A DNA stretch of 56,734 bases from an uncultured Opitutia bacterium (GTDB taxonomy: Bacteria > Verrucomicrobiota > Verrucomicrobiia > Opitutales > Coraliomargaritaceae): assembly GCA_937136395.1 (NCBI GenBank), contig CAKZOI010000048.1, positions 1 to 56,734 on the forward strand. Direction: 5' to 3'. The notes under the pieces were generated by a model. The model worked only from the letters and a program-made list of their open reading frames with translations, did not search any database and was not told where the DNA came from. Shown piece by piece: positions 37,953 through 56,734 of the stretch (position 1 is the stretch's first letter; every line of letters starts with the position of its first letter). The position numbers and the translations under genes are program-made.

Positions 37953-37978
37953 TGTTCAGTGAATGTTTAAATGACTTA

Positions 37979-39925: not shown

Positions 39926-40026
39926 AATTAATTAAACGTTATTTAAATTGGACAACATTATGAAACAAGTGTTTTGAATACTTCATCAATAAGGGGCTTA
40001 AGTGGAGGGGTAAAAATAAAACGAGC

Positions 40027-41343
40027 CTAATATCGCGGAGGCGTTTCCTTTAGCCACTGATCTAGGAGCTTCGAAAGGTAATCGACTTTCTCTGGATGCG
40101 TTGAGGCTAAATTATTTCGGTCATCGGGATCAGTCTTAAGGTTAAAGAGTTCTTTACTGCTTGGGGTTTGAATCAACTTATACCATCCATCGATAACAAC
40201 AAAGGCCTTGTATCCGTCCTTAACATCTTTGCGTTTCTCAAGATCACTATCATGGTCATAAACATCGACAAAAATACGGTCACGCTCCTTGAGCGCCTCA
40301 GGGTCGCGAAGATCTAAGCCTTTCATTTCCTGGGGAGGCTCAATGCCACAGGCTTTTAAAATAGTCGTGGCAATATCAAGATTACTAGCGAGACTGCTTG
40401 TATCACGTAAAGGTTGAAGTGTGCCTTCGTGAGTAATGAAAATGGGTGTTCGTATACCAGCTTCCACTGGTTGACGCTTCGAACGAATCGAACTGTTCAT
40501 TTTATTTGGATTCTGCACCCATCCATTGTCACATGTGAAAACGAATATAGTATTTTCATACTGATTATTCTTCTTCAAATAGTCTACGATTTGGCCACAG
40601 GTCTCATCTAACCATTCAACATTTGCCCAATACTTTGCCGTTGGTTTATCTGGCGCAATACCCTTATATTTGTTGAACAAACGATCGGGAGCATCATGTG
40701 GGGAGTGTGGTAAATACACACCATACCAAATGAAAAAGGGCTGCCCTGTTACCTTCGACTTATCGGCTATATCGGTAATCGGTTTGATCGTTTTACGACC
40801 GATTCTAAGCCCGACATCTCCATGCCTGCCGCCTGCGGTGGCGACCCCATGTGTCATCGCGTGTGTAAAACCATGATCTAAGGGATCTTCCTCCCACCAC
40901 TTACCCGTCTGCAGTGTGAGATATCCATTCTCTTTGAGCACTTCTATAAATGTTGTGCACTCCGAAAAAGGAGCCGTCATCTTCTTACGCAGCTCACCGA
41001 AGAGCTCTAGGTGTGTTTTACGATGTGTCCCCTTTGGCATAACAGGATCATTACCTCGAATTCCCGTTTCGTGAGGGTAAAGGCCAGTTGCTAAACTAGC
41101 CAAGGACGGACGACAAAGCGGCGCAGTTACGTAGCCACGTTCATAAAGCATCCCTGCGGCAGCAAGCTTATCTAGATTCGGGGTCTGTATATGCTCGTGC
41201 CCCATGAAGCCGTAATCATTCCAAGCTTGGTCATCGCTCAACAAAAAGACCACGTTCGGTCTTTCGATCTCAGTTTCAGCATTTACAGTGGAACATGCTA
41301 CAATAGCGAGCATGGCTAAGGTGCCGCTTTTTTTAAACAACAT
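40027..41343 (-). CDS. Sec-exported sulfatase with CRPSL motif
   Basis: A family S1 sulfatase of 438 residues with a Sec signal peptide (about 1-22, ending VNAE). The N-terminal metal site is VVFLLSDDQAWNDYGFMG. The catalytic Cys is C77 in APLCRPSLASLATGLYP: the fifth residue of the C-x-P-S-R motif is Leu, a variant seen in many marine sulfatases that keep activity. FTCDNGWVQN supplies later metal ligands. It is the fourth gene in transcription order, 48 bp after GH3 and 101 bp before the unknown lipoprotein gene. Confidence 0.92.
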   Translation of the reverse strand: MLFKKSGTLAMLAIVACSTVNAETEIERPNVVFLLSDDQAWNDYGFMGHEHIQTPNLDKLAAAGMLYERGYVTAPLCRPSLASLATGLYPHETGIRGNDPVMPKGTHRKTHLELFGELRKKMTAPFSECTTFIEVLKENGYLTLQTGKWWEEDPLDHGFTHAMTHGVATAGGRHGDVGLRIGRKTIKPITDIADKSKVTGQPFFIWYGVYLPHSPHDAPDRLFNKYKGIAPDKPTAKYWANVEWLDETCGQIVDYLKKNNQYENTIFVFTCDNGWVQNPNKMNSSIRSKRQPVEAGIRTPIFITHEGTLQPLRDTSSLASNLDIATTILKACGIEPPQEMKGLDLRDPEALKERDRIFVDVYDHDSDLEKRKDVKDGYKAFVVIDGWYKLIQTPSSKELFNLKTDPDDRNNLASTHPEKVDYLSKLLDQWLKETPPRY

Positions 41344-41391
41344 AGCTAATTTGAGATCTGATTGAGTGAGATTGATGACAAAGCCAGCCCT

Positions 41392-43653
41392 TTATTTCAA
41401 TTTAAACGACTTAGTCTGATAATCTACAGAAGAAGTTCCAAGCATTACATGATAGTCGCCTGCTTCCAGCACCGGTTTCATCTCAAGACCAGTAAACTTT
41501 AACATCTCTGGAGTGATTGTGAACTCGACCGTTTTGGTTTCGCCCGGATTGAGTTCAATTTTCTGAAAACCCTTCAACTCTTTGTCGGGACGAATAACAG
41601 TGCCAATCAAATCCTTGATATATAGCTGAACCACCTCCTTAGCTACCATACTTCCACTATTTGTAACCTCGACGCTGGCGACAAGTGTTCCATCTTTGGC
41701 CATTTCCTCACTGGAAAGCTTCGGCTCTGAATAGCTAAATGTCGCATAACTCAAGCCATGACCGAATGGGAAGAGTGGTCCGTCTTTCTGGAAGAGATAT
41801 CCCTTCTTATAGTTGATTTCCTTCTGACTGTAGTGGAACGGGAACTGACCAATGGAGCGGGGCACAGTTACAGGCAACTTCCCAGACGGTGAAACCTTAC
41901 CGAACAGAATTTTAGCCACGGCAATATCACCAAATTCGCTAAGATCCCAACAACTGAGAATCGCATTGGCCTCTTCAGAAATAACGTTGATTGCAAGCGT
42001 GCGGCGATGCTTCAGCACGACGACAACTGGTTTTCCGAGCGCTTTCACGCGCTGGATCAATTCATCCTGCGGGCCGACCGGATCAATCGAATCGCGGTCG
42101 CCAACGGTGTTGTTGAAGTAGGCCTCTTTGGCCGTAAACTCATCCCCGCCAAGAAACAGCACGGCGACATCCGCAGCCTTTGCTTTTTCAACCAGAGAAG
42201 CAATTTTTGCTTCGTCACGGGGCAGCAGGTTAGGCTTGCCCTTTTTCCGATTGGTCAGGTCGAAGCCCTGTTCACTGATATATGTGATTGAAGATCCAGT
42301 CACCTGCTCAAACTGTTTTTGAGTATTCTCATACAGCAAGGGTCCGAGTAATGCGACTGTTTTCAATTCATCTTTATTCAACGGCAACGCATTCTCTTTG
42401 TTTTGCAAAAGGATCGGCGATTCCAAGTCGGCTTCGAGTGCAAGTGCCTGCGAAGCTTCGGAGCGCACTTCTTTCTTAGTGTCTTCCAAGTTTGTGTACG
42501 GATTCTCAAAGAGACCAAGTTTAAACTTAGTCCGCAGCACGTTGCCCACCGAACGGTCGATATACGGAACCAGGCTGGAATCTTTCTTCGCCATATCCGC
42601 CAAATAAATGTAGGCCAAATCGCTGTAAAGGTCGACATCCATACCGGCTTTAAGTGCCATTTCAACGGCAGCTTCATGCGACTCAGCAACCTTCATGAAA
42701 TCATGCAATCGGGCGATATCATTGGAGTCGGACACAATGTATCCGTCAAATCCCCACTGCTCCCGAAGAACTTCGGTCAACAGCCACGGGTTGGCGTGGC
42801 TTGCAATACCGTTGAGGTCACCATGTGAAGGCATGATTCCAAATGAATGGCCACGCTCTACTGACGCTTTGAATGGAGGAAATATCTGATCGATCAGATC
42901 ACGTTCAGAAATCTGGATAGAGGCAAAGTTACGGCCGCCCAACACCTGTGCATAGCCAGCAAAATGCTTGGTCACTGCGCCGATGTGTGTGCTGTTGACA
43001 CCAGAACCGTCGTATCCACCTTGAACACCGGTTGTTGCCGCAACCACCATTTCCGTGGCCAACCAAGTATCCTCACTGTATCCTTCACTCATGCGACCAA
43101 AACGCGGATCACGCATAATGTCCCCTACCGGAGAGTGGCACATGTGGAACCCACGCAAACGCGCTTCGCGACCAGTCACGGTCCAGATGCGATTCACCAA
43201 ATCAACATTCCAAGTGGCCGCCATATTGATTGGACGCATAAAGCGGGTGCTGCCATTCGCGTCGACACCGTTATAAGCCTCGCAGACAAACATAGCCGGA
43301 ATTCCGAGACGGCTCGTGTCTATAATGTATTTCTGTAACTCGTTGGTCAGCTTCGCCGCCTGTTCCGGTGTATCGAGCTCACCGGGGTTCTTGATACCGG
43401 CAATACCATACTCCAGACGCTTTTTAACATCTTTCGATAAAACCAGTTCCCCGTTGTCTCCGGATTCGATGCCCTTGACGCGGTGAAAGATGCGCATTTG
43501 TGCCACCTTCTCCTCTAAGGTCATGCGCCCGATTAAATCTTTGACACGCTCCTCAATCGGCAAAGAGGCGTCTTTATAGGGGAGCGCGGATGCTGTAAGC
43601 GCAACAACGGATAATGCCGTAGCTACGCAACCTGTTAGTAGTCTATTTTTCAT
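41392..43653 (-). CDS. Glycoside hydrolase family 3 beta-glycosidase
   Basis: The ATG at 43653 gives 753 residues with a signal peptide (MKNRLLTGCVATALSVVALTASA). It has the full bacterial GH3 layout. An N-terminal TIM barrel starts SLPIEERVKDLIGRMTLEEK, with the nucleophile Asp in FDGYIVSDSNDIARLHDF. An alpha/beta sandwich (VALLGPLLYEN, VAVLFLGGDEF) follows, and then a C-terminal fibronectin-III-like domain (VEVTNSGSMVAKEVVQLYIK). GH3 enzymes release beta-glucose, beta-xylose or related sugars; in this cluster beta-xylosidase or glucosidase action on algal oligosaccharides is likely. A longer frame to 43740 lacks a signal peptide. Confidence 0.93.
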   Translation of the reverse strand: MKNRLLTGCVATALSVVALTASALPYKDASLPIEERVKDLIGRMTLEEKVAQMRIFHRVKGIESGDNGELVLSKDVKKRLEYGIAGIKNPGELDTPEQAAKLTNELQKYIIDTSRLGIPAMFVCEAYNGVDANGSTRFMRPINMAATWNVDLVNRIWTVTGREARLRGFHMCHSPVGDIMRDPRFGRMSEGYSEDTWLATEMVVAATTGVQGGYDGSGVNSTHIGAVTKHFAGYAQVLGGRNFASIQISERDLIDQIFPPFKASVERGHSFGIMPSHGDLNGIASHANPWLLTEVLREQWGFDGYIVSDSNDIARLHDFMKVAESHEAAVEMALKAGMDVDLYSDLAYIYLADMAKKDSSLVPYIDRSVGNVLRTKFKLGLFENPYTNLEDTKKEVRSEASQALALEADLESPILLQNKENALPLNKDELKTVALLGPLLYENTQKQFEQVTGSSITYISEQGFDLTNRKKGKPNLLPRDEAKIASLVEKAKAADVAVLFLGGDEFTAKEAYFNNTVGDRDSIDPVGPQDELIQRVKALGKPVVVVLKHRRTLAINVISEEANAILSCWDLSEFGDIAVAKILFGKVSPSGKLPVTVPRSIGQFPFHYSQKEINYKKGYLFQKDGPLFPFGHGLSYATFSYSEPKLSSEEMAKDGTLVASVEVTNSGSMVAKEVVQLYIKDLIGTVIRPDKELKGFQKIELNPGETKTVEFTITPEMLKFTGLEMKPVLEAGDYHVMLGTSSVDYQTKSFKLK

Positions 43654-43670
43654 AAATTTTTCTATAATTG

Positions 43671-45020
43671 TTAACGGTTTTCCACTTGGTAATCGACCAC
43701 TGAAACTGTTTTTCCAGACTGGCCGATCACTGAAATCCAACCGTCTTGCTGAACACGGGTTCGGTCGATCCCCATACTGCTATCTTTAAATAATTCGTCG
43801 TTTACTGAGGCGATTGTTTCTATCTTTCCAAAACCTTTTGTCAATGTGCGCATTAGCTCACGATTTGAAATGATATACAGATATCGGCCTTTCCCTGCAA
43901 TTAATTTGCCTGAAGCAGATTTCTTACGTGTCCACTCCCAACTAGTTGGATCGCGTTGAAAATGAACATACGGACCATCCTCGCCACGCATGAGCACATG
44001 AACACGGCCATCGGCATCGACAGCCATAGAGCCACCATTGAGGAATCTAGTACCAGGTGGAATATCCCAAACCGCAATCCCTGGTGTATCAGCAGCGATA
44101 AAACGCTTACCCTTCTCTGCGACTACATCGCCACGACTATTTTTCCATGTGATTCCATCATCACTGTATGCATAGCATAGATCATGACAAGTGGACGAGT
44201 CGGGTGTATCACGCCAGCACCATGTCAAGTGACGGCGTCCGTTATGTATGACCATGACATGAGGATATGCGTTCACGGTTCCATTGCCGCCGGACCATCT
44301 TTTATCAATCAGTTGACTGTTCTTTTCAGTATTTGGAGACCACTTCCCATCTTTGTATGCAAAAAAGTGTGAATTTGCGGAACCAGATCCACCTCCCAAT
44401 CGTAGATACAGCGCAAAATGCTCACCGTCAGTCGAAAATGAAGGATATGTTACAAATGTGATTTTGTGGCCACCGAGGTTATCTTGAACGGGTCCGAATA
44501 AATCTGCAGTCCATTCATAGGCGGCAGGATTATTCGCAACCGGCTCTAAACTGGTGCGATAGCGCAAAGTAGAGAGATGATGATCGAAGGATAAATGTAT
44601 GATACCATCGGGCGAAATGCCCATCACTACCTTTTCATGACCATCGCCAAAGCCTCTAGACTTACGGCCACCCTTTCCGCGATCTCCACTTTCAGTGCGC
44701 TGGTAATCAGGTAGCGATACCACCGACCAGTCCCCACTGGGGAGCTCTCGTCGCGCAATTGAAACTTGCTTTGCATCATCCCAATAGGCGGCATATTGCC
44801 AACCCTTGTGCGTCCATAACGAACCATATCCAAAATTCCACCTACTGCCCAGCTTTACTATATGCTTCGGCATCCCATTCTGAGCAACGACAGAAATACT
44901 TATATTTTCATCTGTTAACTGACTCGCTAGGCTGGAAGAAGCCACGACGATGTAGAGCCCATACAGAGCGTGCCCAATCCGCTTCATAGTCATAGGGATT
45001 CTATGACTACAAATGCTCAT
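43671..45020 (-). CDS. BNR_4 beta-propeller protein, probable PL25-type ulvan lyase
   Basis: A 449-residue exported protein with a signal peptide region before about residue 33, then a seven-bladed propeller of the BNR_4 type (GFGDGHEKVVMGISPDGIIH, then LSFDHHLSTLRYR). Residues H128, H148, Y192, R207 and Y252 have almost the spacing I recall for the catalytic residues of the PL25 ulvan lyase PLSV_3936 (His123, His143, Tyr188, Arg204, Tyr246). That makes a lyase cleaving rhamnose-uronate links a reasonable inference. The ATG at 45020 overlaps the GH78 stop (ATGA), which supports this start; ATGs at 44993 or 44987 would give a shorter signal peptide. Confidence 0.78.
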   Translation of the reverse strand: MSICSHRIPMTMKRIGHALYGLYIVVASSSLASQLTDENISISVVAQNGMPKHIVKLGSRWNFGYGSLWTHKGWQYAAYWDDAKQVSIARRELPSGDWSVVSLPDYQRTESGDRGKGGRKSRGFGDGHEKVVMGISPDGIIHLSFDHHLSTLRYRTSLEPVANNPAAYEWTADLFGPVQDNLGGHKITFVTYPSFSTDGEHFALYLRLGGGSGSANSHFFAYKDGKWSPNTEKNSQLIDKRWSGGNGTVNAYPHVMVIHNGRRHLTWCWRDTPDSSTCHDLCYAYSDDGITWKNSRGDVVAEKGKRFIAADTPGIAVWDIPPGTRFLNGGSMAVDADGRVHVLMRGEDGPYVHFQRDPTSWEWTRKKSASGKLIAGKGRYLYIISNRELMRTLTKGFGKIETIASVNDELFKDSSMGIDRTRVQQDGWISVIGQSGKTVSVVDYQVENR

Positions 45021-46807
45021 TTAACTTCCAAAAATACGTCTCCCGAGACCAACTGATCGAGCACCCAACGGTCCCCGATGCGCTGTGCCTCGACTCGTTT
45101 ACCAGCAGCATAAACACCTTGTGAATTAGCAATTGCTGGCAGATCAATTTTCGCTTCCATACCATCCGGCAGTCCCAGTGAAATCTTGAAGCTTTGTCCA
45201 TTTTTCCAATGAATTGCAATTTGGCCACGCGGCGTGGGCACGGTTCCCTTAGCAAACTCTAAATGACCCACGTGTGGACGGATACGAGCGGGCTTCCAAC
45301 CTGGCTCTAGTGGTTCTGCTCCGAGTATGTAGCGCGGGAGCAGATTCGCTGGTGCTGCGCCCCAAGCATGATTCCAGTCTTGGTTTCGCTTATACTTCAA
45401 GTCCCACGCTTCCCATGTAATTGTGGTGCCACTATTCACCATATGCTTCCAGCTACGATCATTGTCGGCCAAAATCAAATCCAACGCTTCGGTAGCTGCG
45501 CCATTTTCAAAAAGACCTTCCATCAAATATTGTGCAGCATATACAGAGCAGCGCATTCCACGAGCTGCTAGCCATTGAGCGGTATTTTCGCGACTCGCTT
45601 CTGGCACGAGGCCGAAAGCCAGTGGAAAGAGATTCGCGTGAGAAGAAATATGATCCGTGTTGATACCATCAAGAAAGAGCCCCTTCTCACTACTGAAAAG
45701 CTGCTCCTTAAACGCTGCGTAGCCGATCTCAAAATCGGCTTCGTATTGCTTGGCCTCATCAACAAACCCGATGACTTTCGCCATCTCTGCCATTTTTTGT
45801 AAAGCGCGCAGGTAGAACGCATTCACAACAGTATTACGCGGAGTGAAGACATACCCATCGCGTTCTCCTTTCGGCCAATCAACAATATCCGTGCGGTTCA
45901 TATCGACATCCTCACTAAAAATCAAACCATCATCGCCTTTACGATGTAACAACAATTTGGACTTCAATGCTTGATAACGTCCGGACATCCAGCCGACATC
46001 CCCCGTATGCATCCAATCTGCATAGACCATAAAAACCATGTGTGGAGACCATTCGGTGGGCCATGTGCCGATACCATCCAACAACATATAGTTAATAGTA
46101 TCGCGCGCCATTTCCTTGTCATAGTCAGTATAGTAGTGGCTCAATTGATTGAGATACGCATCGGCTTCGTATGGAATACGCTCACGGTCGCCATCAACAT
46201 AGACACCGGCAAATGTCGTCGCTTTAATTGAATAACGACACAGCTCCCATATTTGATTGAGCATATCGTCAGAAGATTCAAATGAAGCGGCATTATCGTC
46301 CCAACTTGACGAAAATGCAGATTGACGGATAATTTGCTCGGACTTCAACTCTCCTTTCCAGCCCTCAACTTCGACCCAACGAAACGGTAAGACCACGCCC
46401 CACTCTTCTGGAGTTAAAATCGCTGGCGGGTGATAGTGCTTACGAGTGGAAACCAACTCAGTATTCCGCTTGTCTGCTGGCGGTGCGACCACAACAGGGC
46501 TGCGTCCGTCCAGATTAACGGTCGCTTTGTTGTAGCGAACGGTGCCCTTTGGCTTACGATTGATACGCCCACCAACGAAGTCTTCACCAAAATGAACGAC
46601 AACTTCACCCGTCGTTCTACTAGAAGGCAATAAACGTATGTTACCAAACGCCGCCCTACCAAAATCGACTAAAATTACGTCATTCGAAATACGCTTAATA
46701 CTCACTGGGGCTTCATCAACCAAGTGCGTGGATGATCCAATAGCTGAATGAGCTAACAATATAATGCCAAAAATAGGCAACAAGGGGCGAAATAAACTAT
46801 TACTCAT
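45017..46807 (-). CDS. Glycoside hydrolase family 78 alpha-L-rhamnosidase
   Basis: A 596-residue exported protein with signal peptide (about 1-24). A beta-sandwich N-terminal part is followed by the (alpha/alpha)6 barrel with the family block VDGDRERIPYEADAYLNQL (residues about 204-222), TWPTEWSPHMVFMVYADWM and, later, the acidic block SGTTITWEAWDLKYKRN. The C-terminal sandwich contains GWKPARIRPHVGHLEFAKG, typical of GH78. It releases terminal rhamnose. It is the first gene of the cluster and shares a 4-bp overlap with the BNR_4 gene. Confidence 0.92.
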   Translation of the reverse strand: MSNSLFRPLLPIFGIILLAHSAIGSSTHLVDEAPVSIKRISNDVILVDFGRAAFGNIRLLPSSRTTGEVVVHFGEDFVGGRINRKPKGTVRYNKATVNLDGRSPVVVAPPADKRNTELVSTRKHYHPPAILTPEEWGVVLPFRWVEVEGWKGELKSEQIIRQSAFSSSWDDNAASFESSDDMLNQIWELCRYSIKATTFAGVYVDGDRERIPYEADAYLNQLSHYYTDYDKEMARDTINYMLLDGIGTWPTEWSPHMVFMVYADWMHTGDVGWMSGRYQALKSKLLLHRKGDDGLIFSEDVDMNRTDIVDWPKGERDGYVFTPRNTVVNAFYLRALQKMAEMAKVIGFVDEAKQYEADFEIGYAAFKEQLFSSEKGLFLDGINTDHISSHANLFPLAFGLVPEASRENTAQWLAARGMRCSVYAAQYLMEGLFENGAATEALDLILADNDRSWKHMVNSGTTITWEAWDLKYKRNQDWNHAWGAAPANLLPRYILGAEPLEPGWKPARIRPHVGHLEFAKGTVPTPRGQIAIHWKNGQSFKISLGLPDGMEAKIDLPAIANSQGVYAAGKRVEAQRIGDRWVLDQLVSGDVFLEVK

Positions 46808-47208
46808 ATAACTCTGATTTTACTTTAGTGACTATATATCATTTTACAGCAATTTGGACATTGCCACTCAAAGATATATCCTTTAATTTTAAAACTAAAC
46901 AAATTCTGTCTAAGGTTTTTGTTTATTCAATCATTTTTCTAAATTTTAATCAATCAGTCAGATTCATAAGTCTAGGATGTATCATACAAACCAATCGCAT
47001 TTCACTCAATACACCCTCTCCACCAAGTAAACACTTCCAGATTTCTACGATTTGAACCAAAGCAAAATCTCAATATCTTTTATATTTCCAAGCCCCACGA
47101 CTATCAAAAAAACATAAAATACTTGTCCTCACATTTTACGACGTTCAACCTAGAGTATTAGCTTAGTTGCTACACAACCCTTTCCACCCTCGCCCAGATG
47201 ACGCAGTC
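46808..47208. other. AT-rich intergenic region between divergent clusters
   Basis: About 400 bp, clearly richer in A and T than either side, with no reading frame that resembles a protein. It separates the minus-strand polysaccharide cluster from the plus-strand TPR-ExbBD cluster and must hold the promoters for both. I could not pick out convincing -35/-10 pairs, an operator palindrome or a hairpin. Confidence 0.6.
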
Positions 47209-50200
47209 ATGCCCAAAAACGCCCTTACTAGTATAACATTCAGTCTCGCGCACGTGCGCGGTCAAATCACGCTTCACAGCTTGCATCAACAATTCCTCAG
47301 GCAAGCACGCTTCATAATCAACTGTTTTGCATTACTATGCATGGTATGTTGCACCACGGGAACCCTTGAGGCACAGGCCCCAGGGAATGAATCGATGCAA
47401 AGTCGAGTCAAACGAGCGACCGATTTAATTCACGCGAAACAATTGGTAAAAGCACGACCACTACTTGTGCAACTTCGCCCTGAAGTCGATCCAGCGATGC
47501 ACGCAAATCTGGATTTCTACATCGCCCTGTCTTACGTATTTGAATACTACGAAAAGAATAATTCATCTGCGTTAGATACTGGACTAGAGAAGTTTCAAGG
47601 TTTCGTTAAATCTTACCTGAAGGACTCATTGGTCCCCCTTGCCCGCTATAATATTGCTGACATTCATGCGATTAAGAAAGACTTCAAAAAAGCTCTGCAG
47701 GGATACATTCCGCTTTATAAAAACCCAGAACCGGGTATCGACCGTAAAGACATTTTAAAGAAAATCGTTTTAATTTATGTTTCAGAAGAACAATGGGAGG
47801 CAGGCATGCCCTACTTTGAAGCGAGTATGCGGATTGCAGAAGATAGCACAGATAGAGCCACTTCAGCTGCTTATTTACTAATTGCGCAAGCGAAACAAGG
47901 GATCGTCACTGACTCCAGACAGCTACTACAGTTCTTCACTAGTCCTGCACCTGTTTTCTATACCCCACGCTTTAATGCGGCACTCATGGAAGTCGGCGAC
48001 CAGCTAAAAACGGAAGGCGACCTACCAACCGCAAGTCTCTTTTATCAGTTTGTCCGTTCTTACGAGAGCCTAGAGCTCGGCCTTACCAACCACATCGCAA
48101 ACTTAAAAGAGCGTGTAGCGAAATTCGAAGGCAATGTAGTTCTACGCAACTTCTACATTGATGCAAAAACAGAATTGGACAACGCCACGGCTGACCTGGC
48201 CGCAGTAAAAGCAACCAAGAACTACACCCCACTCTTACACTGGCGTATTGCTGGTGTTTACCTAGACATGGAACGCGACTGGGAAGCGTTTTGGCGCTTC
48301 AGGAAGATGGTGGATAAGTATCCTGACCATGAATACGCGGAAAGCATTCTCTTCTCCGCATTTTCACTTGGGCACAAATTAGATCAATATGACATTGCTG
48401 AAGAATTATCGAAGCGATATCTCTCAAATCCAAACTTCAGAACCTACCGCGCAACCGTTGCGGATAGTATGTCATCCATGTATCTGGAGTATGAAAAATA
48501 CGAAGAACTCTACGCGATGACTCGTGAGTATTTGTCTCATTCTGCTGGCGACGCCGCATCAGCACTATTGCTCTTCAAGCATGGCATGGCTCGTTTGAGA
48601 CGTTTTGAAAATCCAGAGCTCATTAATGATTTCCAGACTTTCAATACAAAATATGGTGAGACTAACAGCGCAGTTGTCATTCGCTACTTCCTGGGCTTAG
48701 GCCTTTTGATCGAAGAAGACCACCAAGGGGCTCTCGATAATTTTGAACTCGTCCTCGCAGAAGGAGACACTCGCTACAAGCCAGATGCCTCCTTCCGCAA
48801 AGCACTCGCAGTGATGGGCCTAGACCGTATCCCGGAAGCCAGAGACCTTGTCGTAGAATTCATTGAGAATTACCCAGACAATCCTTTGCGCGCTCAAGCT
48901 GAATTGATTCTTGGTAATCTCGTAGATTTGCTCGGTGATGCAAACAAAGCATTAGGGCACTATTATCTCGTCGAACAATACTCCGACGATCTTGAATTGA
49001 ATGCCTCTGCAGAACTGAAAATTTCACGAATCTTGGTAGATCAAAATGAAATCGACACTGCAATAGGCCGCCTCCGCTCCTTCATTGACACACATGTTGA
49101 AGATGCGGCGACAATACCTATAGTCGCTGCTTTAGCTGATATCTATAAGGATTTAGAGAAGCCACGCGTTGCCCTTGAAACGATTAAAGAACCGATCATT
49201 CGCTTTTTTACGTTAACCGAAATCGACAAACTAGACACTCTACTGCTTAATTATATCACAAAAGATCGAGCCGTACGCGAAATGGAAGTCGCCACGGAAG
49301 CATTCTTCCAAGAGATTACTGATTCACCAGACTTGTTCCGAGACCTAGTCATCGACCGGGCAAAGCAATACCGCTATTTTAAAGAGCACAGCAGTGTGGA
49401 TGGTCTAGTAAGAGATTATTTCCTCGAGAACGAAGACTTCAGAAATGCAGTTAAAGCTTACTTCAAAGAGGTGGATCAAATCCAGGCTGCAAACGAAACG
49501 GCTAAAGAAGAGGCCGCAAACAGCCAACCTCCAACACAGCCAAAACTGCTTGAACCGATGCACCCCGTCGGCGAACTCGCAGTCTTAATCGACCTTAGAA
49601 AACAGGTCGCCGAGCTAAATGCCAGCATGCCAAAGCAGACGGCAGACGATTGGCTAAAGTCACAATTAGCCGAAGCACGGGCGGCTAATAATATTCCACT
49701 CGAACTACGCATTCAAACTGCTTTGGCTAAAGCCGAAGATCCCGAAAGTGCACCAAATCACAGAATGGTTCAACTATTTGATGACCCAGAGCAATGGTCA
49801 GAACTGGGCTTAGCCCCAAAATTATGGATACTCCGTAAGGTTGCAGAGCTTGATCCAGCGAGAGTGATTGAAGAATTAGAAATCTCACGTGTTGACTACA
49901 TGAACACTGACTTCGAGTTAGAGCGACACCTTTTACGAGCGAAAGCTTACAAGCAAGCCGAGCAGCCAGAATCTGCGATCGAAGCATACCAAGTGTTGAT
50001 TAAGCGTTTTGCACAAGCAAATGAATCTGGCGAGGCCATGATCGCCATTGGACGCATGCAAATCGAGTTAGGAAACTATCAAGCTGCACGCGATCAACTA
50101 GAGACCATTCTCCATCGAAACGACTGGCGTGGGCAAATGCATGGCGATGCCCTACTCTGGATCGGCCGTGCGTATGTAGCCGAAGAAAAATACCCTGAAG

Positions 50201-50400
50201 CACATGGATTTTTTGAACGGATCATGTTGGGCTACCCAGGGTTCCCCGAATTACTCGCGCAAGGATATTATGAAGATATCCAAGTACTCAAAAAAATGGG
50301 AGATACTGCGAGCGTTCAGACGGTATATGAGGCCTTTAAGTTGACACCTGGATTAGAGGATACAGAAGCGGCGAAACTGATCAGAAAGGAATTTGAATAA
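47209..50400 (+). CDS. Large exported TPR protein
   Basis: About 1063 residues from the ATG at 47209. A hydrophobic stretch (FIINCFALLCMVCCTTGTLE) preceded by basic residues acts as signal peptide or membrane anchor; the n-region is long, so a later non-ATG start is possible. The rest is helical TPR or Sel1-like repeats, for example ALQGYIPLYKNPEPGIDRKD, FWRFRKMVDKYPDHEYAESI, ALGHYYLVEQYSDDLELNAS and AIEAYQVLIKRFAQANESGE. Near 770-800 there is a short Glu/Pro-rich stretch. It overlaps the next gene by one base (TAATG). Position before exbB suggests a periplasmic scaffold of the ExbBD machine. Confidence 0.82.
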   Translation: MPKNALTSITFSLAHVRGQITLHSLHQQFLRQARFIINCFALLCMVCCTTGTLEAQAPGNESMQSRVKRATDLIHAKQLVKARPLLVQLRPEVDPAMHANLDFYIALSYVFEYYEKNNSSALDTGLEKFQGFVKSYLKDSLVPLARYNIADIHAIKKDFKKALQGYIPLYKNPEPGIDRKDILKKIVLIYVSEEQWEAGMPYFEASMRIAEDSTDRATSAAYLLIAQAKQGIVTDSRQLLQFFTSPAPVFYTPRFNAALMEVGDQLKTEGDLPTASLFYQFVRSYESLELGLTNHIANLKERVAKFEGNVVLRNFYIDAKTELDNATADLAAVKATKNYTPLLHWRIAGVYLDMERDWEAFWRFRKMVDKYPDHEYAESILFSAFSLGHKLDQYDIAEELSKRYLSNPNFRTYRATVADSMSSMYLEYEKYEELYAMTREYLSHSAGDAASALLLFKHGMARLRRFENPELINDFQTFNTKYGETNSAVVIRYFLGLGLLIEEDHQGALDNFELVLAEGDTRYKPDASFRKALAVMGLDRIPEARDLVVEFIENYPDNPLRAQAELILGNLVDLLGDANKALGHYYLVEQYSDDLELNASAELKISRILVDQNEIDTAIGRLRSFIDTHVEDAATIPIVAALADIYKDLEKPRVALETIKEPIIRFFTLTEIDKLDTLLLNYITKDRAVREMEVATEAFFQEITDSPDLFRDLVIDRAKQYRYFKEHSSVDGLVRDYFLENEDFRNAVKAYFKEVDQIQAANETAKEEAANSQPPTQPKLLEPMHPVGELAVLIDLRKQVAELNASMPKQTADDWLKSQLAEARAANNIPLELRIQTALAKAEDPESAPNHRMVQLFDDPEQWSELGLAPKLWILRKVAELDPARVIEELEISRVDYMNTDFELERHLLRAKAYKQAEQPESAIEAYQVLIKRFAQANESGEAMIAIGRMQIELGNYQAARDQLETILHRNDWRGQMHGDALLWIGRAYVAEEKYPEAHGFFERIMLGYPGFPELLAQGYYEDIQVLKKMGDTASVQTVYEAFKLTPGLEDTEAAKLIRKEFE

Positions 50401-51497
50401 TGTTAGCGAAAATACAGTCACTAATCACCCTATCAAGTATCAGCGCTCTACTGGCCAGCAGTGTTTGCAGTCAATTAGCCGCTGCAGACTCGAAGCCCTA
50501 CATTGCACCCGATTTCACTAAGACAAAACCAGTAAAACTTGAGGTGCGGCAACAAGGTGGCCGCACGGGACAATACTTAGTTTACGCAACCAACGAAGGC
50601 GTTGAAATCGAAATGATACAAGGCGGTGGTCGCGTCATCCTTCAATGGGGGCATATGGATCAATTCCAAATATACATGCCCATGACCAAGCGCATGGAAG
50701 ATGCACTTGCACATCCACTCGCCAGCGAGCGAAAGCGATTACTTAAACTCGAACTCGACCCTGTGCTACCGATGTCGAGTCTAGAGGAAGGCACCACGAA
50801 TATTCATAACCTCATCGAGGCCTATATTGAAGCTGTAGTAGATGTTGAAGACTGGCTAGAAGGCTACGAGATTTCTCAAAAAATGGCATTGGATCGAACT
50901 CCGGTGACAATCATCCAGAACTTCTACTCCATCGCGGTAAACCTCTTCGTGGCTGGTGAGCATAAAAAAGCGTTAAATCTTTTAGACCAACTCGTTGCCG
51001 CACGACCTGCCAGTGAATCTGGCAAAGAGTCCTTAATTGTTGCACAAAGTTTACTTAGTCTTCGATTGTTCGAACCGTCATACAGTTTGTATCGTGCAAT
51101 TGCATCCAGTGGTGACGAAACACAAGCAAAAGAAGCCTTATATATTTGCGCATACTTGAGCATGGAACTCGGCAATGGTGAATCCGCACAGTACCTAAAA
51201 AAAGCGCAAGCAATCCCAGATGAGTCCAATGCGACATTGGGCACATCAGAAATCGTGCTAGGCGTTCAAGCATTCCAACAAGGCGATTCAGCACTCGCGC
51301 TCAAGCATTTAGGACATGGCTTAGCTTTGGTGAAACCGACCAGTCATATCAGACAAATTGGGCTCCACTATAATTTCTTAAGCTATGAAAATCTAGAGAA
51401 TGAAGAGATCTCAACGTCAATCCTCGACGAAATGAAACTCTTTTTTCCAGATGGCGCATTTACAGCCAAATTAACCACTCAAACTGAAACACTCTAA
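50400..51497 (+). CDS. Second exported TPR-like protein
   Basis: A 365-residue protein with signal peptide (about 1-29, MLAKIQSLITLSSISALLAS onward). A short beta-rich region (KLEVRQQGGRTGQYLVYATN) is followed by helical repeats of TPR type (HKKALNLLDQLVAARPASES, FEPSYSLYRAIASSGDETQA). Its start overlaps the stop of the large TPR gene, so the two are translationally coupled, and exbB follows after 26 bp. I know no family for it; the context suggests a subunit of the same envelope machine. Confidence 0.78.
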   Translation: MLAKIQSLITLSSISALLASSVCSQLAAADSKPYIAPDFTKTKPVKLEVRQQGGRTGQYLVYATNEGVEIEMIQGGGRVILQWGHMDQFQIYMPMTKRMEDALAHPLASERKRLLKLELDPVLPMSSLEEGTTNIHNLIEAYIEAVVDVEDWLEGYEISQKMALDRTPVTIIQNFYSIAVNLFVAGEHKKALNLLDQLVAARPASESGKESLIVAQSLLSLRLFEPSYSLYRAIASSGDETQAKEALYICAYLSMELGNGESAQYLKKAQAIPDESNATLGTSEIVLGVQAFQQGDSALALKHLGHGLALVKPTSHIRQIGLHYNFLSYENLENEEISTSILDEMKLFFPDGAFTAKLTTQTETL

Positions 51498-51523
51498 TTC
51501 CTAAAACCAGACCATTATTCCCT

Positions 51524-52318
51524 ATGATTAAATATATCAAATCCTCCAAGTTACGTATCGCATGCTGCGCCCTGCTATTTGCGGGCGTCTCGACCCTTGC
51601 CTATGCGCAAACAGAAACTGCAGCTACTGACGATAATGTAGAAGCTGTCGTCGAAGCCTCTGAAAAGAGCTTCCTCTCAATGATCGCGGCAGGCGGCTGG
51701 GCGATGTATCCCCTAGGCTTTCTTTCGATGTCCGCATTCGCACTCACAATCTACAACTTTATGGCATTACGCCCCAAAGATTTCTTTAATGAAGAAGTGG
51801 CGACCCAATTGGGCGAAAAGCTCAGCGAAGTCGATATTGAAGGTGCCAAATCTTTGTGCGAAGAGCATCGCTCACCTTTAACACGGATCGTAAAACATGG
51901 GCTCGACTCCGTGCGTGGTGGACAAGTCGACACTGCCCTCTTCCATCAACGTCTCGAAGCTGGCTCCGGTAAAGAATTGGCGCAACCCTTTGTTATCATC
52001 AACTACCTCTCTATCATCGCATCCATCGCACCGATGCTGGGTCTCCTTGGAACCGTTTCTGGTATGGTCAAGGCCTTCAGTTCGATTGCAACGGTTGGTA
52101 TGGGACAGCCCGACCTCCTCGCAGGTAACATTTCCGAAGCTCTGATCACCACTGCATCCGGTATGCTTGTCGGTATCCCAACAATGTTCTTCTTTTTCTT
52201 CTTTAAGAATCAATACGGAAAATTAGTCGCGGATATGACTATGTATCTTGACGACATGTACGGCGATCTTGTGCACGGCATGCGTGTCAAAGGTTCGTCC
52301 GATAGCACAAACGTCTAG
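51524..52318 (+). CDS. exbB: ExbB/TolQ/MotA-family proton channel protein
   Basis: ExbB with ExbD uses the proton motive force to drive TonB-like proteins. The 264-residue product has an extra N-terminal signal-like helix (about 10-28), a short periplasmic stretch, then a first channel helix (WAMYPLGFLSMSAFALTIYN). After the cytoplasmic part come two further helices in the family block FVIINYLSIIASIAPMLGLL, GTVSGMVKAFSSIATVGMG and EALITTASGMLVGIPTMFFF. ExbBs with an N-terminal signal peptide are common outside enterobacteria. It is followed by two exbD genes at 36 and 11 bp. Confidence 0.93.
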   Translation: MIKYIKSSKLRIACCALLFAGVSTLAYAQTETAATDDNVEAVVEASEKSFLSMIAAGGWAMYPLGFLSMSAFALTIYNFMALRPKDFFNEEVATQLGEKLSEVDIEGAKSLCEEHRSPLTRIVKHGLDSVRGGQVDTALFHQRLEAGSGKELAQPFVIINYLSIIASIAPMLGLLGTVSGMVKAFSSIATVGMGQPDLLAGNISEALITTASGMLVGIPTMFFFFFFKNQYGKLVADMTMYLDDMYGDLVHGMRVKGSSDSTNV

Positions 52319-52354
52319 GGGCTAGTGCCACATTAAACGCACCGACAATCCTTT

Positions 52355-52771
52355 ATGAGCATACAAGGCTACAAAGTGCCCCAAGAGGGCGAAGGCTTCG
52401 ATCTAACTCCTATGATCGATGTCGTCTTCTTGCTCATCGTCTTCTTCATGACGGTGGCAAGTATGTTAACAGCCGATAAAATCGACTTAAATCTCGCAGT
52501 TGCCGAAGAATCTGCGATCCCAAAAGAAATTAAGGATCGGTACACATTTTCGGTGCTCAATGATGGGCGTTTTTTCGCAGGTCCACAAGAGGTCTCAGCG
52601 GAGCGCCTAGAAGAGCTTATCGCACGAGTTGCTACGACCAGCCGAAATGTGAAAATTGTACTTCGAGCGGATCGCATGGCAGAACACCAACATGTCAACA
52701 AGATGCTCCAGATCTGTGCACGACACGGTATCAATGACATCATCTTCGCAACGTACCAGAGTGACCTATAA
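52355..52771 (+). CDS. exbD: ExbD/TolR-family protein, copy 1
   Basis: A 138-residue protein with one N-terminal membrane helix preceded by FDLTPMIDVVFLLIVFFM. The essential proton-carrying Asp is D22. The periplasmic part (about 45-138) has the ExbD/TolR fold pattern YTFSVLNDGRFFAGPQEVSA and ends NKMLQICARHGINDIIFATY. It is paired with a second, different ExbD copy directly downstream, so the motor may contain an ExbD heterodimer. Confidence 0.94.
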   Translation: MSIQGYKVPQEGEGFDLTPMIDVVFLLIVFFMTVASMLTADKIDLNLAVAEESAIPKEIKDRYTFSVLNDGRFFAGPQEVSAERLEELIARVATTSRNVKIVLRADRMAEHQHVNKMLQICARHGINDIIFATYQSDL

Positions 52772-52782
52772 CCAAGCCACAA

Positions 52783-53214
52783 ATGAAAGCATCTGATATA
52801 TTTGAAAGTGCGGGCAAACCTGATTTGACCCCAATGATTGACGTGGTTTTCCTAATGTTGGTCTTCTTCATGGTCACCACGGAGTTAATTAAACAGGAAG
52901 CTGACCTCGGGATACAATTGCCCTCACAAGCCCCGCCCATTGCAACACCAGAACTCCCCTCTAAGCATACGATTGATATTTTGCCTGATGGCACAGTTCT
53001 ACTAAACGGAGGAAACACAGGTGACGATATTTATGGTGAATTAAGTGGACTGACGACTATGCTAGCAGGCTTAAAAGCATCTGCCGACCGTCTAAAGCGA
53101 CACACCATCGTAACGATACAAGCCGACAAATTCTCTCCTCATTTCCGCTCAATTGACGTGTTGAATGCCTGCTCTAAGGCGAACTTAAAGTTCGTGTCCT
53201 TCAGTCAAATGTAG
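52783..53214 (+). CDS. exbD: ExbD/TolR-family protein, copy 2
   Basis: A 143-residue paralogue of the preceding gene, starting MKASDIFESAGKPDLTPMID with the essential Asp at D20 and the helix VVFLMLVFFMVTTELI. The periplasmic domain (HTIDILPDGTVLLNGGNTGD, and a C-terminal FRSIDVLNACSKANLKFVSF) differs from copy 1 except for the fold pattern. The gap to copy 1 is 11 bp and to the first TonB-like gene 18 bp, so all belong to one operon. Confidence 0.94.
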   Translation: MKASDIFESAGKPDLTPMIDVVFLMLVFFMVTTELIKQEADLGIQLPSQAPPIATPELPSKHTIDILPDGTVLLNGGNTGDDIYGELSGLTTMLAGLKASADRLKRHTIVTIQADKFSPHFRSIDVLNACSKANLKFVSFSQM

Positions 53215-53232
53215 GGCCTACGACTTAATACA

Positions 53233-54306
53233 ATGTCAACTCCACATAATGAAAATGAGCTAGGAAAACCGCTTCGCAGCAAGAAGAAGCGAGGTGCTGT
53301 ATTTGTAGTGATCGCAGCGAGTGTCGCAGTGCATGTTTTAGGTCTCGGCATTTTTGGGGTGATTAAGATCGTTGAAACGATTTCTGACCCACCAGAGTTC
53401 GAAGCCCCACCAGTGGAAGCAATCAAGCCACCACCTCCACCGCCGCCCCCTCCGCCAACGACAAAGCGGTCACAACGCAGCCTCCCACGACCACAGCCGT
53501 TAGCAGTTCAGAACCCTCAAAATATGAGTGTGCCTTCAATTAACATGCAAGAGTCCGACCTCAGCCTAGGCGCTGGACGCGGATTTGGCGGCGGTCTTGG
53601 TGAAGTCGGTGGCGGCATGCTCGATAGAGTCGACATTAGCTTTTTCGGGGTCGAGTCCACAGGTGATAATATTGTCATCTTATTCGACCGCACTGGCTCC
53701 GGTAGAAATATCTTTGATAAAACGCGGACGGAGTTACTTAGCACCATCGATATGATGAAGAATAACCGAGAGTCGCGCTTTGCAGTGATCTATTTTGGCG
53801 GTTATACCGATAGAAATAACCCAGAAAACAAGGTTAAAAATGACTATTGGATGCCCAAAGGATTAGGTTCGCGCCCCAAATGGTTGGCCGCTGAAAGTAG
53901 TGAAGCTGAAAAAATTAAAGCAGAACTAATTCCGATAGATGCTTCAGCTCCTGGCGTGGAAGTGCGCAGCGTAGATGCTATGCGTAAAAGCAAAAATGCC
54001 TTCTTTGTTACGGGCACTAATTTCTGGGGAGCCATTAATGCCGCGTTCTCCATGAAGCCCGCTCCAGACACTATCTATTTTATGGTCGAACCCAATATTG
54101 CTTTTGCTGAAGTCGCCAAGGTAAATAGTGACTATGCACTTTTCAAAAAGAAAGGCAGAAAAAAACCAGACGAGACGACTGTCTATTTCATCGTCGGCAG
54201 GCAAAAGAATACAGTCAAAAACCAACAAGCACTCAATCTCATGGTGAACCTTATCCATGGTGGAAAGCTGTCCAAAAGTGAGATTCAGAAACGTATCGTT
54301 TATTAA
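53233..54306 (+). CDS. TonB-like anchor fused to a von Willebrand A-like domain
   Basis: A 357-residue protein. Residues about 21-46 form a membrane helix with S30-V-A-V-H34, the SxxxH motif of TonB and TolA. A ten-proline run (66-75) and a proline/Arg-rich spacer follow, then a conserved Gly-rich stretch (GAGRGFGGGLGEVGGG). In place of a TonB C-terminal domain, residues about 145-290 look like a von Willebrand A domain: NIVILFDRTGSGRN (D152, T154, S156), FFVTGTNFWGAINAAF (T262) and DTIYFMVEPN (E286), the order of a metal-ion-dependent adhesion site, with the usual DxSxS read as DxTxS. The next gene has almost the same first 130 residues. Confidence 0.83.
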   Translation: MSTPHNENELGKPLRSKKKRGAVFVVIAASVAVHVLGLGIFGVIKIVETISDPPEFEAPPVEAIKPPPPPPPPPPTTKRSQRSLPRPQPLAVQNPQNMSVPSINMQESDLSLGAGRGFGGGLGEVGGGMLDRVDISFFGVESTGDNIVILFDRTGSGRNIFDKTRTELLSTIDMMKNNRESRFAVIYFGGYTDRNNPENKVKNDYWMPKGLGSRPKWLAAESSEAEKIKAELIPIDASAPGVEVRSVDAMRKSKNAFFVTGTNFWGAINAAFSMKPAPDTIYFMVEPNIAFAEVAKVNSDYALFKKKGRKKPDETTVYFIVGRQKNTVKNQQALNLMVNLIHGGKLSKSEIQKRIVY

Positions 54307-54323
54307 ATTCTTGTTTTTAGTAT

Positions 54324-55475
54324 ATGACAATTCCACACAATGAAAATCAATTAGGCCAACCGCTTCGAAATAAAAAGAAGCGTGGTGCGGTCTTTATCGT
54401 TATCGTAGCAAGTGTCGTGGTGCATGTCTTAGGCCTCGGGATTTTTGGGGTGATTAAGATCGTCGAAACGATTTCTGAGCCACCAGAATTTGAAGCCCCG
54501 CCAGTCGAGGCAATCAAACCACCTCCCCCACCTCCTCCGCCGCCACCAACGACAAAGCGATCGCAGCGGAGTCTACCACGACCACAACCATTAGCGGTGC
54601 AAAACCCGAAGAACATGAGCGTTCCGTCAATCGACATGCAAGAGTCCGACCTCAGCCTTGGTGCTGGCCGCGGATTTGGTGGTGGTCTTGGCGAAATTGG
54701 TGGTGGTGCCTTAGATTCATTACGCCTTACGAGTTTCGGCTTCGACCAAGCTCTCGAAGGCACTTTAGAAGGGTATCTATACGATCTAAAGCAAAATCCC
54801 AAAGGAAAGCCCTCTGACCTAATGAAGTCGATAAAGACTGGCAAAGATGGATTAGCAGACATGAAGTCCCGCAACGAGGTAGCTAGTGTCATCCGGAAAT
54901 TTACCAGCTCATCTTGGTCAACCAACAAATGGGATCGCGAATACTACAGAGTCGATAAACCACTCTATGCATCCTATTTCATAATACCGGCTCAACGTGC
55001 GGAGGGCGCACCTAAAGCCTTTAATGCACACAATAAGGTAAAGCCTAGGCAAATTGCCGTGCTCTACAAAGGAACCTATACTCCACCTGCAGATGGCCGC
55101 TTTCGCTTTTATGGACTGGGCGATGATACACTGATCGTCAGACTCAACAAACGAATCGTATTGGATGCTACAATTCAAACTGGGCGACGATACACAAGCA
55201 AGCCTCCGCCCAAAGAAGACGATTTAGGGAAAGCATATTTTGACTTTAACGAACGGTTTAAAGGAATATACGGTGATTGGTTTAATCTAAAGCAAGGACA
55301 ACCTGTCGATATGGAAGTATTACTTGTGGAAAACCCTGGCGGCCTATTCGGTGCTTGGCTGACAATACAAGAAAAAGGCGGACAACCTAAGATCTTTAGC
55401 GGCCGACCACTCAGTAGAGAAGACCGAGACTTTATCCGAAAAACACACCGAGATTCGGCGCAATTTCTAGATTAA
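54324..55475 (+). CDS. TonB-like anchor fused to a PA14-like domain
   Basis: A 383-residue paralogue of the preceding gene. Over the first 131 residues I count about 13 differences, and the SxxxH motif (S30, H34), ten-proline run and Gly-rich stretch are all kept. The remainder is unrelated to the VWA part. Residues about 215-350 resemble a PA14 domain, a carbohydrate- or peptide-binding fold (YKGTYTPPADGRFRFYGLGD, DTLIVRLNKRIVLDA, FGAWLTIQEKG). No TonB C-terminal domain is present. The gap to the VWA-type gene is 17 bp. It is the last gene I can place in the cluster. Confidence 0.83.
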   Translation: MTIPHNENQLGQPLRNKKKRGAVFIVIVASVVVHVLGLGIFGVIKIVETISEPPEFEAPPVEAIKPPPPPPPPPPTTKRSQRSLPRPQPLAVQNPKNMSVPSIDMQESDLSLGAGRGFGGGLGEIGGGALDSLRLTSFGFDQALEGTLEGYLYDLKQNPKGKPSDLMKSIKTGKDGLADMKSRNEVASVIRKFTSSSWSTNKWDREYYRVDKPLYASYFIIPAQRAEGAPKAFNAHNKVKPRQIAVLYKGTYTPPADGRFRFYGLGDDTLIVRLNKRIVLDATIQTGRRYTSKPPPKEDDLGKAYFDFNERFKGIYGDWFNLKQGQPVDMEVLLVENPGGLFGAWLTIQEKGGQPKIFSGRPLSREDRDFIRKTHRDSAQFLD

Positions 55476-55577: not shown

Positions 55578-56734
55578 ATGTTAACAAAATTACTTATCTG
55601 CGGCTTGACACTAAGCTTAACACTTAACGCAGCGCCCAGCATCACCAAGAAACCGATACGAGAGCAGCATACGATCACGATCGACACTGACAAAGTCGTT
55701 GGTGAAATTTACAACCTATGGGATGTTCGCGTAATTAACGTGCCCGAACTTTGGGGTGAGCCCGGCTTTGCCGAAATGATGCAGGCAACCTCAAAGCATG
55801 CCAATTATATCGTAAATGTTCGCTCTCTCGGTGGCACTCACAGTGGGGCATGCGAGTGGTTTAAAGGCGTGGACGAAGATGGTGAGCCAATTACTGACTT
55901 CGCCCCTTTCATAGAATACATGAAAGCTCAAAAACGCGTCGGCTTCACTCCGTGGATCATACTTGATAATGTGCCTTGGGGTATGGCGAAGTCACAAGAG
56001 CGACATTTCTATGGGCAGTGCCACCCTCCGGAGGATTTTGACCTTTGGTTCAAATACGTTCGCGATTTTGTCCAAGCACTCGTCGACGAGTTTGGACTCG
56101 AAGAGGTGTCGACTTGGCGCTTTCGCGTAGGCACCGAGCCTGATCTCTACCCCAAGCACTGGGCAGGAACGAAAGAAGAATATTTCAAGCATTACGACTA
56201 CACCGTCGCCGCCGTTGAAAGTGTTATCGCAGAGCCTCGCATTGGCCCAGGCAATACGCTGATGTGGAGTGGCGCTCAGAAATCTAAAAAGGGCCGCTGG
56301 GGTTTTGAAATTCTGCGCCACTGCGCAGAGGGCACCAATTACTACACAGGTGAGACCGGCACACGTATCGAGTTTTTTGCTAACTCTGTGTATGCTTGGA
56401 ACCCGAAGCCCTTCAACTTTGAGAAAGGCATGAAGAAAAGTCGCCAAGAACTCGCGAAGTACCCACAACTTGAACATGTACTACTAGAAGTTCATGAATA
56501 TGGCGAGTTAATGGAGTGTTTGAGCAAAGGCGATGCACTCAGTAATACCGAGTTCTTTGTTGGCCTCTACGCACATACTGTCGACATCGCCTATCAATAC
56601 GATGTGCGCCGCGTTTACAATTGGGACCACCACCTAGGAATGGTTTACACATGGGAACAAATCACGCCGGGCCTCTTCCAGCCGTGGACAAAGGTAATGG
56701 ATTGCCTTGAAGAAATAAAAGATGGTGAGCGCGT
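55578..56734 (+). CDS. GH39-like glycoside hydrolase (3' end missing)
   Basis: From the ATG at 55578 an open frame runs without stop to the window end (385 codons visible). A signal peptide (MLTKLLICGLTLSLTLNAAP) is followed by a TIM-barrel-like sequence. The general acid is probably E187 in FRVGTEPDLYPKHW and the nucleophile E307 in LLEVHEYGEL, with the spacing of about 120 residues expected for clan GH-A families such as GH39. WKGTKEEYF-like (WAGTKEEYFKHY) and YNWDHHLGMVYTWEQ blocks also fit. GH39 members act on xylosides and related sugars. It lies 102 bp after the PA14-type gene on the same strand. Confidence 0.72.
   Translation, partial: MLTKLLICGLTLSLTLNAAPSITKKPIREQHTITIDTDKVVGEIYNLWDVRVINVPELWGEPGFAEMMQATSKHANYIVNVRSLGGTHSGACEWFKGVDEDGEPITDFAPFIEYMKAQKRVGFTPWIILDNVPWGMAKSQERHFYGQCHPPEDFDLWFKYVRDFVQALVDEFGLEEVSTWRFRVGTEPDLYPKHWAGTKEEYFKHYDYTVAAVESVIAEPRIGPGNTLMWSGAQKSKKGRWGFEILRHCAEGTNYYTGETGTRIEFFANSVYAWNPKPFNFEKGMKKSRQELAKYPQLEHVLLEVHEYGELMECLSKGDALSNTEFFVGLYAHTVDIAYQYDVRRVYNWDHHLGMVYTWEQITPGLFQPWTKVMDCLEEIKDGER

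Follow-up and report, generated by a model that had tools for sequence, protein, structure and literature searches.

What does an ExbB-ExbD proton motor drive when the TonB-like proteins encoded beside it lack a TonB C-terminal domain? This question is raised by a contig of an uncultured Opitutia bacterium (Verrucomicrobiota; Coraliomargaritaceae; CAKZOI010000048.1), analyzed over its whole length of 56,734 nucleotides (hereafter, the window), which carries an operon on the + strand at positions 47167-55475, as delimited by the open reading frame (ORF) list. In gene order, this operon encodes two tetratricopeptide repeat (TPR) proteins (TPRbig and TPR2), ExbB, ExbD1, ExbD2, and two anchor proteins, one ending in a VWA-like head and the other in a PA14-like head. 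In their first 142 amino acids the two anchor proteins show 85% identity, and they have nothing in common beyond this point. We consider it moderately probable that the operon encodes a proton motor of the ExbBD type together with two exchangeable periplasmic force transducers, one VWA-headed and one PA14-headed. The features involved are as follows:

47167..50400, + strand: TPRbig, first gene of the operon, a 1077-aa TPR protein (ORF, Pfam TPR matches, NCBIfam TIGR02795)
50400..51497, + strand: TPR2, a 365-aa TPR-like protein (ORF; Pfam TPR matches below cut-off only)
51524..52318, + strand: ExbB/TolQ-type proton channel subunit (Pfam PF01618 MotA_ExbB, E 4.7e-27, over cut-off)
52355..52771, + strand: ExbD1 with transmembrane Asp D22 (PF02472, E 1.5e-22, over cut-off)
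52783..53214, + strand: ExbD2 with transmembrane Asp D20 (PF02472, E 3.7e-19, over cut-off)
53233..54306, + strand: VWA-ended transducer, 357 aa (ORF; profile evidence)
53233..53640, + strand: anchor of the VWA protein, residues 1-136 (86.8% identity to the PA14-protein anchor over 136 residues)
53629..54303, + strand: VWA head (alignments; hhalign probability 99.0)
54324..55475, + strand: PA14-ended transducer, 383 aa (ORF; relatives)
54324..54731, + strand: anchor of the PA14 protein, residues 1-136, transmembrane helix with S30xxxH34 (anchor comparisons)
54723..55472, + strand: PA14 head (AlphaFold, Foldseek, VIA-align, alignment)

The motor genes and the shared anchor

The first-pass annotation of this DNA had described an ExbB and two ExbDs with the essential Asp, all in one operon with gaps of 11-36 bp. 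The three motor subunits were confirmed by Pfam matches over cut-off and by D22 of ExbD1 and D20 of ExbD2, each the Asp of a 'TPMIDVVF' stretch; the coordinates from ExbB to the PA14-anchor gene give gaps of 36, 11, 18, and 17 bp, in that order. The two upstream TPR genes had been missed, and the operon begins further upstream: the end of TPRbig (the true start of which is uncertain, with TTG in the ORF list) overlaps the start of TPR2 by one base, and TPR2 is separated from ExbB by 26 bp. A TPRbig homologue is also present upstream of the motor in relatives, which keep the position of TPR2 between TPRbig and ExbB.

Both anchor proteins contain S30 and H34 inside a transmembrane helix as well as a run of ten prolines, bearing out the TonB-type anchor (SxxxH helix and proline spacer) that had been proposed for them; in the VWA protein, the anchor also includes a conserved linker and a Gly-rich stretch and ends at an FFG junction. 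Approximately 20 residues precede the helix in both proteins, with no signaling domain recognized there by Pfam. A TonB C-terminal domain, which the first-pass annotation had reported as missing, was not matched by Pfam at E ≤ 1 in either protein, and none was detected in the PA14 head, as judged on a model, or in the VWA protein, as judged on profiles. Taken singly, the two proteins gave no Pfam match at E ≤ 1 and no significant PDB sequence match; evidence for the domain calls therefore comes from relatives, from profiles, and from a single model.

The operon thus resembles the TonB system in its ExbB/ExbD motor, N-terminal SxxxH helix, and proline-rich spacer, and differs from it in the lack of a detected TonB C-terminal domain and in having heads of two kinds, a pair of ExbDs, and two TPR genes. 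By analogy with ExbBD-TonB, ExbB with the ExbD1/ExbD2 pair would draw on the proton gradient, both transducers would dock at the same side of ExbB via the same SxxxH helix, and the Pro/Gly-rich linker would transmit motion outward into the periplasm. The load would be one of two unrelated heads, of VWA or PA14 fold, placed at the same FG junction instead of a TonB C-terminal domain, while the TPR proteins probably hold a partner or scaffold.

The PA14 and VWA heads

The proposed PA14-like C-terminal domain was borne out by modeling and fold searches. An AlphaFold model computed from 18 sequences presented a predicted local distance difference test score (pLDDT) of 86.8 and a predicted template modeling score (pTM) of 0.87. 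In Foldseek searches with this model, the seven best rows were PA14 domains (E 2.4e-7 to 4.4e-7), most of them complexed with sugar; VIA-align superposed the model on 6m8m with Z 12.6 (root mean square deviation 3.2 over 161) and ranked second the PA14 domains of Clostridium anti-sigma-factor proteins (Z 11.9). At E ≤ 0.1, the PA14 profile matched only Vip4Da1, a PA14-domain entry, and Epa9 (E 0.015 to 0.048) in the PDB. The gathering score of Pfam PF07691 was not reached by the window PA14 protein, which had no match at E ≤ 1; when eight relatives were scanned singly, five matched PF07691 and only the protein of locus L198 reached the cut-off (24.7 vs. 24). A consecutive Asp pair (D267-D268) is invariant in the 18-sequence alignment; in PA14 adhesins, such pairs bind calcium and sugar. 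The head therefore shares fold and conserved Asp pair with sugar-binding PA14 adhesins (e.g., the Marinomonas RTX adhesin and yeast Flo/Epa), but it is predicted to sit on an inner-membrane force-transducer anchor, while those of the adhesins sit on a surface protein.

Support for the VWA-like C-terminal domain came from profile-profile comparison. A profile of the window VWA protein and its nearest relatives in genomes G010 and G001 (the window trio) matched an independent VWA-transducer profile, from which the window protein was excluded, with an hhalign probability of 99.0 (E 2.5e-18), compared to 0.2% for a control against the PA14 profile; the independent profile in turn matched solved VWA-bearing chains, with E down to 9.9e-14. 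Relatives at the same gene position present a canonical DxSxS and Pfam VWA matches, over the VWA cut-off for L085 and L198 and below it or none for the others; in the fetched stretches of L085 and L086, both of which entered the VWA alignments, neither SxxxH nor a motor match was found. The metal-dependent adhesion site of vWA domains comprises DxSxS, Thr, and Asp ligands. In the window protein this site is incomplete: D152xT154xS156 and T262 are retained, and E286 takes the place of an Asp that is present in relatives beyond the window trio. This replacement of the third metal-site Asp by Glu, common to the window protein and its two nearest relatives, makes the earlier description of the head as a metal-dependent VWA doubtful here.

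The VWA half of the system is not new. Williams-Jones et al. (2025; PMC12204202, section 8) describe vWA force transducers of PVC bacteria, the genes of which neighbor a TPR gene as well as those for TolQ and paired TolRs, and model them by AF3 in complex with their motor. The window VWA protein agrees with these transducers in its Ser/His helix, its vWA head, and its position downstream of a TPR gene, a tolQ-like gene, and two different tolR-like genes. It differs from the transducers described there in the Asp-to-Glu replacement of the window trio and in being accompanied by a PA14 arm with a near-identical anchor; no PA14 head is named in section 8, and the term 'pa14' is absent from that text. 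No description of a PA14-ended or paired transducer was found in the literature, with most subscription papers outside the coverage of our search.

Paired transducers and their distribution in relatives

VWA and PA14 transducer genes adjoin in six genomes of four families (the window genome, G000, as well as G010, G001, G100, G208, and G289), and the motor lies in the same operon as the pair in the window, G010, G001, and G100. The first-pass annotation had named a conserved gene order as a test; linkage to the motor is conserved in relatives, while a fixed order of the two transducer genes was rejected, since PA14 comes first in G010 and G001 and VWA comes first in the window and G100. With the VWA and PA14 matches described above and no TonB C-terminal domain detected in either protein, none of the findings by which the first-pass reading could have fallen was obtained.

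A comparison of anchor identities among 22 proteins indicated that the two anchors of one genome tend to resemble each other. Within-pair identity was 88.9% in G000, 80.9% in G010, 83.5% in G001, 98.5% in G100, and 64.2/70.1% in G289, and in each of these five pairs it exceeded the identity to the best same-headed anchor of any other genome. This likeness extends up to the start of the unrelated heads, which match by type instead (44 to 51% across the window, G010, and G001 vs. 15 to 17% within a pair). In the G100 pair, 72 of 84 four-fold sites agree, indicating recent exchange of the anchors; in the window pair, 33 of 71 are equal vs. 20.0 expected from codon use, suggesting an exchange that is either old or incomplete; the rest of the likeness between the window anchors may stem from selection for a single docking surface. 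The pairing suggests two arms tuned to one motor. Both proteins of the G100 pair (L198:5729-8741) also carry a SAM domain, over the Pfam cut-off, at the N-terminus on the cytoplasmic side.

PA14-ended transducers occur across Verrucomicrobiota, and in several families their genes belong to a motor operon or lie next to one. In a set of 91 relatives, 22 genomes encode the PA14 head; the whole VWA protein as query matched 54, many through the anchor alone. In a sample of the phylum, the PA14 profile matched 59 of 288 genomes at E ≤ 1e-8; 58 of these were examined (57 with fetched loci and the window genome, entered by hand; G191 was left out), usually at one or two PA14 loci per genome out of several matches in most genomes. 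A PA14 protein with S/TxxxH in a transmembrane helix was present in 28 of the 58 (with G010, which has TxxxH, assigned by hand), and a PA14 gene on the same strand as and within 6 kb of ExbB/ExbD was present in 12; both characters coincided in 10 genomes of six families (f1, f13, f29, f31, f39, and f42). Further such PA14 cases in the first sample were G001 and G014 (both f1) and G064 (f23). With a closer PA14 alignment (A3) as query, 19 loci were obtained from named genomes; the relatives named include Opitutales and Puniceicoccaceae metagenome-assembled genomes (MAGs) and Cerasicoccus arenae, a cultured strain of which (KCTC 12870; L106) encodes a PA14-ended transducer next to a motor that belongs to another class than the window type.

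Several results weigh against the reading of one motor with two exchangeable transducers. With respect to the VWA head, the window trio's own profile found no VWA match in the PDB, and the AlphaFold model, computed from two sequences, is unreliable (pLDDT 44.6), so that this head rests on profiles. With respect to pairing, no motor was found in the fetched stretches around the G208 and G289 pairs. The G208 anchors are 41.6% identical within the pair, and its PA14 anchor is 47.7% identical to that of another genome's PA14 protein; in G011, the anchor of the PA14 protein, which is encoded on another contig, is about as close to its own VWA proteins as to the G001 PA14 protein (72.0 vs. 71.8), and the G011 VWA proteins are closer to the G001 VWA protein than to their own PA14 protein. 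With respect to distribution, the PA14 proteins examined lacked SxxxH in 30 of the 58 genomes, including all 22 of genus g61, and in family f55 the PA14 gene lies inside a motor operon but the motif is missing.

Two broader claims were not supported. Accompaniment of every PA14 transducer by a motor is rejected by the 12 of 58 genomes given above, and the view that the PA14 proteins of g61, an Akkermansia-like genus, are the same device finds no support, given the absence of SxxxH in all genomes examined. The g61 proteins (e.g., those of L156-L158) keep a transmembrane helix from which SxxxH has been lost. Genomes of family f46 (G134, G299, G319, G235, G122, and G171) contain 9 to 14 PA14 matches each, which may represent an expanded set of orphan arms; six f46 loci with PA14 and without VWA encode SxxxH proteins with no motor adjoining. 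Two records titled Blastochloris sp. (MAG; L095 and L099) contain heads that are Verrucomicrobiota-like PA14 domains, and these bins are possibly mislabeled.

Two f29 genomes encode an additional arm between ExbD and PA14 in the motor operon (L162:8919-10556 and L163:9389-11047). The L162 arm has an alpha/alpha-toroid (squalene-cyclase-like) head (33.8 vs. a cut-off of 26.1 in a Pfam scan of L162 only), and its anchor is 48% identical to that of the PA14 arm over 181 residues. The L163 arm is 78% identical to that of L162, and AxxxH replaces SxxxH in both.

Gene neighborhood and possible function

Genes for polysaccharide breakdown flank the operon on both sides:

36423..46807, - strand: two sulfatases, GH3, BNR_4, alpha-L-rhamnosidase, and one unassigned gene (Pfam)
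55578..56734, + strand: GH39-like gene, 102 bp downstream of the operon and cut by the window end (PF01229, 59 bits, cut-off 26)

Similar neighbors were found in relatives, the neighboring genes of which were scanned in part. These include three sulfatases and a GH43 in G010, two sulfatases and a TonB-dependent-receptor plug protein in G001, a sulfatase in G030, and a sulfatase and a GH57 in G011; in G014, a sugar transporter and an esterase lie at one motor and a sulfatase and a GH95 at the other. The family has this motor in three classes, namely the window type and classes II and III. With one sulfatase profile, a sulfatase was detected at 8 of 11 window-type loci vs. 1 of 34 comparison loci, corresponding to 15 sulfatases in 102.9 kb of flanks and 1 in 395.8 kb, respectively; L080, which has two anchor-type VWA proteins and no motor match, had been dropped before this count. 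The weight of this association is reduced by its having been noticed before it was counted, by the non-independence of those window-type loci that share a genus, and by the use of ten of the 15 sulfatases at these loci to train the profile. The two window-type loci of other families (L079 and L081) have no sulfatase in their flanks. Motors of classes II and III and those of other families have no nearby sulfatase either, so that an association of any motor of this type with sulfatases is rejected in favor of the window type only; two of these motors, one of class II and the other of class III, have an alpha-amylase gene as a neighbor. Genome-wide, Pfam counted 30 sulfatases in the window genome (3.18 Mb); the counts for the other nine genomes range from 28 to 103, with two of them being lower bounds.

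The sulfatase and glycoside hydrolase neighborhood, along with the sugar-binding PA14 structures heading the fold search, provides indirect support for polysaccharide capture, which the first-pass annotation had raised. We tentatively regard a polysaccharide role as the likeliest job of the window-type motor, at a confidence well short of even; its heads would grip a polysaccharide, or its outer-membrane or periplasmic carrier protein, during breakdown of sulfated polysaccharides. The two heads may also divide this labor, which is a weaker suggestion.

Other functions that would use the same genes were weighed against this proposal. In a Tol-Pal-like machine, the motor would move the heads so that they keep hold of the outer membrane or wall while the cell grows and divides, with the TPR protein acting as YbgF/CpoB. 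The motor type fits such a machine, TPRbig exceeds the cut-off of the NCBIfam model tol_pal_ybgF (TIGR02795; 117.1 vs. 90.1 bits), the best NCBIfam models are TolQ for ExbB and TolR for both ExbDs (all below cut-off), and three classes of motor exist in the family. However, no match to TolB, Pal, or the TolA C-terminal domain was found by Pfam in the window among the eight genes of the operon scan or the six upstream genes, window-type loci cluster with sulfatases, and the window genome has a separate ExbB-ExbD-TonB_2 set on contig C70. We judge this explanation unlikely for the window-type motor; for motors of the other two classes, a Tol-Pal-like role is the most likely one.

An adhesion or gliding machine of the AglRQS-Glt type, in which the motor would move adhesive heads, appears improbable. 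AglRQS is composed of one TolQ and two TolR subunits, which equals the count of one ExbB and two ExbDs found here, and VWA and PA14 folds are both found in adhesins; a link to gliding has also been suggested for vWA transducers in PMC12204202. On the other hand, GltJ scored 14.5 and 15.9 bits on the two anchor proteins, far below its cut-off of 450 and on residues 15-94 (i.e., the helix and the prolines), an inner-membrane tether is predicted for the heads, and NCBIfam recognized no other gliding gene among the scanned operon genes. We give still less credence to heads that sense polysaccharide or envelope state and return a signal through the helix. The anti-sigma-factor PA14 domains ranked second in the structural comparison and the cytoplasmic-side SAM domains of the G100 pair are consistent with such sensors, but the short N-terminal segments of the window proteins contain no recognized signaling domain, and SxxxH together with motor linkage fits force transfer better.

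A more far-reaching scheme, which we put forward as conjecture and consider rather unlikely as a whole, would have one ExbBD motor driving interchangeable arms. Gene conversion or selection would maintain a uniform docking region in these arms, while their heads would be exchanged (VWA, PA14, and the alpha/alpha-toroid encoded by two genomes from another family). The window type would then supply the missing powered step of SusCD-independent polysaccharide import: PA14 would hold the glycan and VWA its outer-membrane or TPR partner, while the motor would pull the chain inward or open a channel. According to PMC8857213, Verrucomicrobiota MAGs from diatom blooms contain no SusCD genes, and other outer-membrane transporters need study; passages of PMC12872454 and PMC13274419 mention TonB-type transport, with neither PA14 nor ExbB mentioned in the former and no PA14 in the latter. 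No published record of window-type motors in sulfatase/glycosidase clusters was found in the literature searched. If the scheme is true, the loads of ExbBD motors would extend beyond TonB, TolA, and vWA heads, and a common anchor would allow different heads to share one motor. A PA14-headed motor inside sulfatase clusters makes the question of import without SusCD directly testable, and the system may help explain how Verrucomicrobiota handle polysaccharides without the usual import machinery.

A total of 12 MotA/ExbB matches were found in the window genome. Three other ExbB loci are accompanied by TonB_C or TonB_2 proteins over cut-off, indicating that ordinary TonB work is covered elsewhere in this genome. 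A second TPR-TPR-ExbB-ExbD-ExbD set with no arm adjoining is located on contig C21 (L112), and a 459-aa VWA-type arm is encoded on a different contig, C72 (L115); in three relatives (L123, L125, and L126), the second motor set and the VWA-type arm are found together.

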